Shown one piece after another: positions 35,628-35,765 of a stretch of 64,000 bases of DNA. The first letter of the stretch is position 1. Every line of letters begins with the position of its first letter. Source of the DNA: Nocardia sp. NBC_01503. Lineage in GTDB: Bacteria > Actinomycetota > Actinomycetes > Mycobacteriales > Mycobacteriaceae. The stretch covers positions 4,030,001 to 4,094,000 of the forward strand of contig NZ_CP109596.1 of NCBI RefSeq assembly GCF_036327755.1, given 5' to 3'. Made by a program: the position numbers and the translations under genes. Under the pieces are notes generated by a model. That model saw nothing but the letters and a program-made list of their open reading frames with translations. It did no database searches and was not told where the DNA came from.

Positions 35628-35765
35628 GTTCGCGGCCCGTCTCGCTTCTGGACTGCGGCTCCATAGACCTGCGCCTTGGAGCGGAGGAGCGCAGCGGAGG
35701 AGCGGAGGGAGGGAAGAAGTGAGACTTCGGGGGCCGCGAACCGCCCGGAGCGAAGCGGAGGGCAG
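35628..35765 (+). repeat. Dispersed intergenic repeat family 1, copy B
   Basis: TTCGCGGCCC (35629-35638) and GGGCCGCGAA (35731-35740) are inverted ends around a purine-rich core of GGAGCGGAGG-type words. A flanking CCGCCCGGAGCGAAGCGGAG (35741-35760) matches the outer part of copy A. The last bases provide the GGAGGG used as the ribosome-binding site of the following kinase. Confidence 0.75.

Follow-up and report, generated by a model that had tools for sequence, protein, structure and literature searches.

The genome of Nocardia sp. NBC_01503 carries a short dispersed repeat that we regard as a real, abundant and genus-specific mobile element with an unusual directional preference. About 105 copies are scattered over the genome; they fold into two hairpins, are missing from some of the corresponding sites in related genomes, and have their right ends mostly directed toward gene starts. 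We estimate at roughly 60% the probability that this is a non-autonomous mobile repeat of Nocardia whose top strand is recognized by way of its hairpins by an enzyme provided in trans, and whose 3′ tail comes to lie directly at a start codon, −10 box or stop codon on insertion. Hairpin recognition by such an enzyme and this placement of the tail are what we infer from the features described below.

Three copies, named A, B and C, lie in the window, by which we mean the whole stretch of 64,000 nt analyzed here (contig NZ_CP109596.1, positions 4,030,001 to 4,094,000). An earlier note on this DNA had placed them between genes, with GTTCGCGGCCC ... GGGCCGCGAAC ends around a purine-rich core and with copy A inverted relative to the other two. 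All of this is borne out: B and C point to the right and A to the left, and genes called from codon usage overlap 2 of the 105 copies in the genome. The window contains six exact matches to the 11-mer end, one for each end of the three copies; if one mismatch is allowed there are 14, compared to a mean of 5.56 in shuffles. The unit turned out to be longer than first noted, and the refined copy limits, which are approximate, are listed below. The “outer flank” ascribed to A and B is part of the repeat itself, and copy C has one too: it consists of a second hairpin (GCCC...GGGC), altered yet complementary in copy C (GCGCCG...CGGCGC), and then a tail.

13326–14744, minus strand: gene downstream of copy A, presumably desaturase-like
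14750–14958, minus strand: copy A, a full unit with two extra 3′ pieces (hairpin II plus tail)
35628–35771, plus strand: copy B
35628–35638, plus strand: outer stem 5′ arm of copy B, GTTCGCGGCCC, pairing with 35731–35741 (covariation)
35639–35649, plus strand: inner stem 5′ arm of copy B, GTCTCGCTTCT, pairing with 35715–35725
35650–35714, plus strand: purine-rich loop of copy B
35715–35725, plus strand: inner stem 3′ arm of copy B, AGAAGTGAGAC (covariation)
35731–35741, plus strand: outer stem 3′ arm of copy B, GGGCCGCGAAC (covariation)
35743–35763, plus strand: hairpin II of copy B, GCCCGGAGCGAAGCGGAGGGC (covariation), with GGAGG in its 3′ arm
35764–35771, plus strand: A-rich tail of copy B, directly abutting the TTG start codon at 35772
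35772–37286, plus strand: gene 3′ of copy B, 504 aa, which from its translation we take by eye to be a PdtaS-like sensor kinase
39130–39259, plus strand: copy C, a divergent unit, with hairpin II GCGCCG...CGGCGC at 39224–39246
39260–39265, plus strand: TAGGCT, a −10-like box that abuts copy C on its right, with 6 nt between it and the GTG start at 39272
39272–39709, plus strand: gene downstream of copy C

The loop of copy B contains an extra piece of about 19 nt that is also present, whole or in part, in copies of loci L002, L003, L004 and L010. GGAGG is a Shine-Dalgarno-like word, and the gene that follows starts with TTG where six named Nocardia relatives have ATG or GTG at the same codon. 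The 3′ pieces of copy A form three tandem 37-nt units at 14767–14877. At copy C the junction reads ACAG followed directly by TAGGCT, boxes being called by the known −10 motif; TAGGCT is found shortly 5′ of the start in four of the six named Nocardia loci, and the repeat is present at this site in none of them.

Several other features were observed in the window. A 60-nt sequence (TTCGGGGTAACTC...ACGCGT) occurs twice, at 34974–35033 and 37419–37478, with 85% identity, one on each side of the PdtaS-like gene region. A very short ORF at about 35160–35235 on the minus strand reads MGKRGRKKRGRKKNAANHGKRPNA by eye, presumably resembling a tiny basic ribosomal protein. A perfect 52-nt palindrome with two 26-nt arms and no spacer lies at 49522–49573; it folds at about −46 kcal/mol with a few flanking bases and is perhaps a bidirectional terminator or operator. 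A terminator-like hairpin at 55179–55260 has 33-nt arms that are 91% complementary, with 16 nt between them.

The complete unit, about 125–145 nt in length, is a two-storey hairpin (two 11-bp stems and a purine-rich loop) followed by a small hairpin II and an A-rich tail. The outer 5′ arm has the consensus GTTCGCGGCC(C), and is followed by the 11-nt inner 5′ arm GTCYCGNTTCT, a purine-rich loop of about 45 nt with GGAGCGGAGG words, and the inner 3′ arm AGAANCGRGAC; a one-sided bulge of about 5–7 nt separates the latter from the outer 3′ arm GGGCCGCGAAC. Hairpin II takes the forms GCCCGGAGCGAAGCGGAGGGC, GCC...GGC, or GCGCCG...CGGCGC, and the tail, of which AGAAAATACAG and AAATTRGACACAG are the commonest kinds, mostly ends in ACAG. 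Two functions proposed for this 3′ region were dropped: a −35 box supplied by the tail, because the TANNNT boxes form their largest group 0–5 nt past the tail, too near for a −35/−10 pair, and an intrinsic terminator, because hairpin II is followed by A-rich letters with no T run.

Covariation in the stems is strong. In an alignment of the 105 distinct copies, which was fitted to the structure and so favors this result, standard pairs fill 96.9% of cells vs. 85.0% in shuffles, 22 of 28 pairs have changed on both sides, and the covariation score is 0.303 compared to 0.091 when shuffled. None of 500 shuffles attains any of five covariation measures, and sliding the partners abolishes all five. 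Even before that, compensating columns could be seen when 29 copies were first aligned with MAFFT; alignment A3 omits four rows. In N. exalbida (L064) the inner stem keeps the same fold with different letters, GCTCGTGTC pairing with GGACACGAGC, and at site S3 the outer stem is made of GGGTCTCGGCCC with GGGCCGAGACCC in the related genome G051 and of GGTTTCGGC with GCCGAAACC-like arms in G010. Near S3, L241 (G051) and L245 (G010) have outer stems GTCTCGG / CCGAGAC and GTTTCGG / CCGAAAC, still complementary, and they are matched at 92 and 75 bits by R1, a covariance model built from 16 copies. Further subfamilies may be undercounted by R1. G-U cells outnumber A-C cells by 37 to 12 with two pairs excluded (3/159, mostly flank, and 16/117) and by 59 to 43 with all pairs, the cells being mutually dependent and the excess shrinking once all pairs are included. 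In the loop, substitutions from G to A, at 0.026 per site, are no less frequent than those from C to T, at 0.018. These figures modestly favor selection acting on a single-stranded form of the top strand, be it DNA or RNA.

The earlier note had proposed a search of the whole genome and of other Nocardia genomes, and the family extends far beyond the three copies of the window. The 8.5-Mb genome contains 61 occurrences of the core word GGAGGGAGGGAA and none of the same word read backwards, which places the repeat far above chance. R1 gave 107 matches at E ≤ 0.01 in this genome, and collection with flanks left 105 distinct copies at E ≤ 1e-5, a lower bound as 150 of 7457 candidates were scored. 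R1 matches (E ≤ 0.001) are present in 22 of 24 genomes of the genus, this one included, with 1 to at least 83 scored matches each where 83 candidates were scored per relative; G006 and G020 have none. Outside the genus, no match was found in 16 genomes, nor in the 147 non-genus genomes of a second draw from the order, in which 22 candidates per genome were scored under stricter filters and the three listed genus members all match; the two non-genus draws overlap. The repeat is abundant and, in the genomes examined, specific to the genus. The six nearest named loci all belong to Nocardia species and are 88–91% identical over the sensor kinase gene, those of N. anaemiae and N. exalbida having weak R1 matches elsewhere in the locus. 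Phage and plasmid records gave no R1 match, and viral contigs no exact match to the core pattern.

Mobility, according to the earlier note, would lack support if the three copies were the only ones or if every copy sat at orthologous positions in all relatives without empty sites; neither is the case. At site S2 (L141:3862-3997) both flanks can be aligned in 20 of 20 relatives, none of which has an R1 match at E ≤ 0.001 there; the weak match of G019 (E 0.0025) falls in DNA that looks like another kind of hairpin. The S2 junction runs from TTCCG into CCATATCTC in G011, vs. from AAAATACAG into CCATATCTC in the NBC_01503 genome. Sites B and C have no R1 match in any of the six named Nocardia loci; the gene upstream of site B is by eye the same in five of them, and other DNA precedes the site in L066. 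At site e a copy is present in G011, shortened remnants are left in G044 and G040, and G001, G041, G043 and G019 have an empty site. Sites S3, b/c, e and f are filled in G011 and S1 and S2 are empty, b/c being one copy there where NBC_01503 has two; four of the six resolvable sites are common to both genomes. Near S1, G001 has a copy in the same orientation and G043 one in the opposite orientation, the latter being an independent insertion. At S3 tail-like letters are host sequence, blurring the exact junction; sites a and g have little or no usable synteny, and site d has other DNA in several relatives. Within the NBC_01503 genome, cores that are 100% identical lie at distant loci (1.56, 2.07 and 3.80 Mb; also 2.31 and 4.02 Mb), and 42 of the 105 copies have another copy elsewhere with at least 95% core identity. 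Since relatives show empty sites, old copies in common and one reversed copy, we conclude that the family spread by insertion, and the filled and empty sites together reveal both vertical inheritance and gain. That the repeat is dispersed, mobile, hairpin-forming and intergenic is supported by its copy number (105 or more), by the empty sites and by cores that do not differ between distant loci.

The insertions are strongly directional. With gene starts called by a codon-usage script and not taken from annotation, 85 of the 100 copies that could be classified point their right end at a gene start: upstream and downstream gene strands relative to the copy are ++ in 55, −+ in 30, −− in 10 and +− in 5, with 5 unclassified, and 55 vs. 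10 and 30 vs. 5 give p of 1e-8 and 2e-5 under equal odds. When the right end is taken to follow any tandem pieces, 15 of 104 copies have it at a start codon, 26 within 25 nt of a TANNNT box and 10 at a convergent stop codon. The union as scored is 51/104 vs. 7/104 for the left end (start codon 1, TANNNT box 1, convergent stop 5), in outward windows of equal width that are not exact mirror images; L153 was dropped from the 105 copies, its left end not being recognized. The script follows loose rules: its tandem-unit rule overshoots in window copy A, L166, L172 and L141:8079, and start contacts at L041 and L163 are missed. The −10-like boxes at C, S2 and e exist as well in relatives that have no repeat at these sites. 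In most start-codon cases the GGAGG of hairpin II lies 5–14 nt 5′ of the start, L031, L143 and L187 being without an exact GGAGG, and the repeat may in this way supply a ribosome-binding sequence. The orientation bias could also have arisen by selection instead of targeting.

Many copies are accompanied by pieces of themselves. An exact self-repeat of at least 13 nt within 110 nt occurs to the right of 30 of the 104 copies and to the left of 17, neighboring full copies included. Fourteen of the 30 right-side repeats start 0–3 nt past the tail and match 3′ parts beginning 20 to 78 nt from the unit end; on the left, three matches begin at unit position 1 or 2. At L179 (8.005 Mb of the NBC_01503 genome) four R1 matches stand in a head-to-tail row with a 122-nt unit, possibly a variable-number tandem repeat useful for typing. 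Beside the L169 copy (2431430–2431594 of the same genome), the left-end word TTCTGGACTGAG occurs four times at 51-nt spacing, in a slippage-like tandem made of the 5′ portion of the unit together with flanking DNA. Copies are concentrated around the presumed dnaA (the best DnaA match): 84 of the 105 are no more than 1.65 Mb away, a limit set after the positions had been seen, vs. 40% expected. Copies per 0.5-Mb bin of distance from the dnaA region number 37, 23, 20, 7, 6, 8, 2 and 2 (the last bin is 0.7 Mb). This density may reflect core-genome ageing or replication-linked insertion, and the excess could come from old, vertically inherited copies in a conserved part of the chromosome and not from ongoing movement.

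Target-site duplications and a matching transposase, both of which the earlier note had suggested seeking, were not detected in the following searches. An offset scan of 82 copies with a recognized tail revealed small excesses at k = 3–6 only, and the best offsets were devoid of near-perfect matches between 8-mers. The Y1 transposase family (PF01797) has no match in the NBC_01503 genome (G000) and any match in 7 of 40 genus genomes; the reverse transcriptase RVT_1 (PF00078), which a retroposon served by its own genome would need, has none in G000, G001, G043 and G011 and is present in 3 of 10 genomes searched. Neither an orphan left end nor a longer parent appeared in the NBC_01503 genome when one exact word was searched, all 55 occurrences of TTCTGGACTGAG lying in known copies or adjoining tandem pieces.

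We favor a route in which the top strand, as single-stranded DNA or RNA, would be recognized through its hairpins by an enzyme acting in trans, and the 3′ tail would be placed against a start codon, −10 box or stop codon. The usual 3′ letters of hairpin II are GGAGGGC or GGAGGC, so that a copy landing on a start codon could bring its own ribosome-binding sequence, and insertion just 5′ of a −10 box would spare the box; with both, insertions would be tolerable and so persist. Copies would later mutate with their stems kept paired, and 3′-terminal tandem pieces would accumulate.

A more specific proposal, which we hold to be doubtful, is that a hairpin element is inserted strand-specifically, 3′ end first and without target duplication, into open or transcribed DNA at gene starts (bubbles at −10 boxes and start codons), by a machinery that is neither Y1 HUH nor reverse transcriptase, its own ribosome-binding sequence sparing the gene. 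The terminal inverted repeats, variable internal length, empty sites and identical dispersed cores would also be expected of a classical MITE, that is, a deleted DDE insertion sequence, cut at its 11-bp ends by a transposase supplied in trans and inserted at random, purifying selection acting against harmful orientations. However, no target duplication was seen at the tested offsets in 82 copies, no orphan left end was found with the one exact word searched in this genome, the inverted repeat does not include the conserved hairpin II and tail, both inner-stem arms covary at many positions, beyond the needs of end recognition, and right and left ends are strongly asymmetric, all of which makes this origin unlikely. 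We also consider it rather unlikely that the family is a structured cis-regulatory RNA, a 5′ leader that mobility dispersed and that now regulates the genes lying downstream of it. Its covarying hairpins, GGAGG near start codons and 85 of 100 copies facing gene starts would suit such a role, but the downstream genes recognized by eye have no common theme. From translated or printed starts we take these to be tatB, tyrS, purB, a desaturase and tRNA-Ser, with BCCP and PdtaS likewise named by eye and from no database. Moreover, 26 of 104 copies (e.g., copy C) end within 25 nt 5′ of a −10-like box and would thus lie outside that mRNA, many sites are not conserved between species, and no Rfam family was matched.

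Amplification of an old repeat without any transposition, by replication slippage, hairpin template switching and gene conversion, would account for the 3′-terminal tandem pieces beside many copies, the four-unit array of 122-nt period, and the stems kept paired, as quasi-palindrome correction would do. It is nonetheless improbable, as local mechanisms leave unexplained the scattered loci with empty sites and the adjacency of right ends to gene signals. Elements of the IS200/IS605 group transpose as single strands with strand-specific hairpins, directionally and without duplication. The present family bears signs of strand-specific hairpins and of directional insertion without detected duplication, as would a REP/REPIN-type element that owed its movement to a RAYT transposase (IS200/IS605 Y1 HUH) no longer present. 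Against this, Y1_Tnp has no match in the NBC_01503 genome or in 33 of 40 genus genomes, the Y1-free ones including G001 and G011 (78 and 30 R1 matches) and G043 (many matches to its own copies), and the consensus has no GTAG foot, so that we regard a lost RAYT as very improbable.

The earlier note knew of no published name for the family, and none was found: among the open-access papers searched, none describes this family in its title or abstract, and the window has no Rfam match at gathering score, the sole match at copy B up to E 10 reaching 12.3 bits (E 5.4). Among known repeats, it is most like the mycobacterial MIRUs in behavior. MIRUs are directional and GGAGG-rich and underlie tuberculosis strain typing; to our knowledge, how such small bacterial repeats move and choose their sites is unsolved. 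The family described here makes this question testable, with about 100 copies in a single genome, relatives in the genus that have few copies or none, hairpins that covary, and a preference for the edge of start codons and −10-like boxes that can be measured; it may also serve as a typing marker for Nocardia. According to a 2025 review, MIRUs appear to be mobile; they insert at start codons, and a reading frame inside them is coupled to the gene by −4 (PMC12548453). Another account gives 40–100 bp units in 41 places (PMC2734929). Both repeats are short, mostly intergenic, directional, GGAGG-rich and tandem-prone, and MIRUs come from a related genus. In contrast to the coupled frame of MIRUs, unit lengths in Nocardia modulo 3 are 40/39/25 (104 copies), and among 20 candidate tail starts a −4 overlap is lacking in 11 and present, in mixed frames, in 9, with no coupled frame found to be common to the copies. 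Right ends lie at a start codon in 15/104 copies here, and 26/104 are within 25 nt of a −10-like box.

REP sequences are described as 20–40 bp palindromes forming abundant intergenic hairpins thought to be miniature mobile DNA, and CGTC repeats as lacking a dedicated transposase (PMC3733652); the main text of that article does not contain the words Nocardia and Actinobacteria. The Nocardia repeat resembles them in its numerous intergenic hairpins and, as with CGTC, in having no dedicated transposase, and differs from REP/REPIN elements in its 125–145 nt, two-hairpin unit and in the absence of a Y1 transposase match from its genome, so that the earlier note's term “REP-like” does not hold in the RAYT sense. 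Bacterial MITEs are defined as 50–500 bp elements with terminal inverted repeats and no transposase of their own (PMC10969869). Hairpin I has 11-bp inverted ends, and beyond these come the conserved hairpin II and tail; with neither detected target duplication nor parent, with no orphan left end (one exact word, own genome), and with an asymmetric, directional insertion, “MITE-like” in the usual sense was not sustained either. Because it behaves like a MIRU but has no coupled frame, we file the family as neither MIRU, REP nor classical MITE, and class it as an unnamed non-autonomous mobile repeat.
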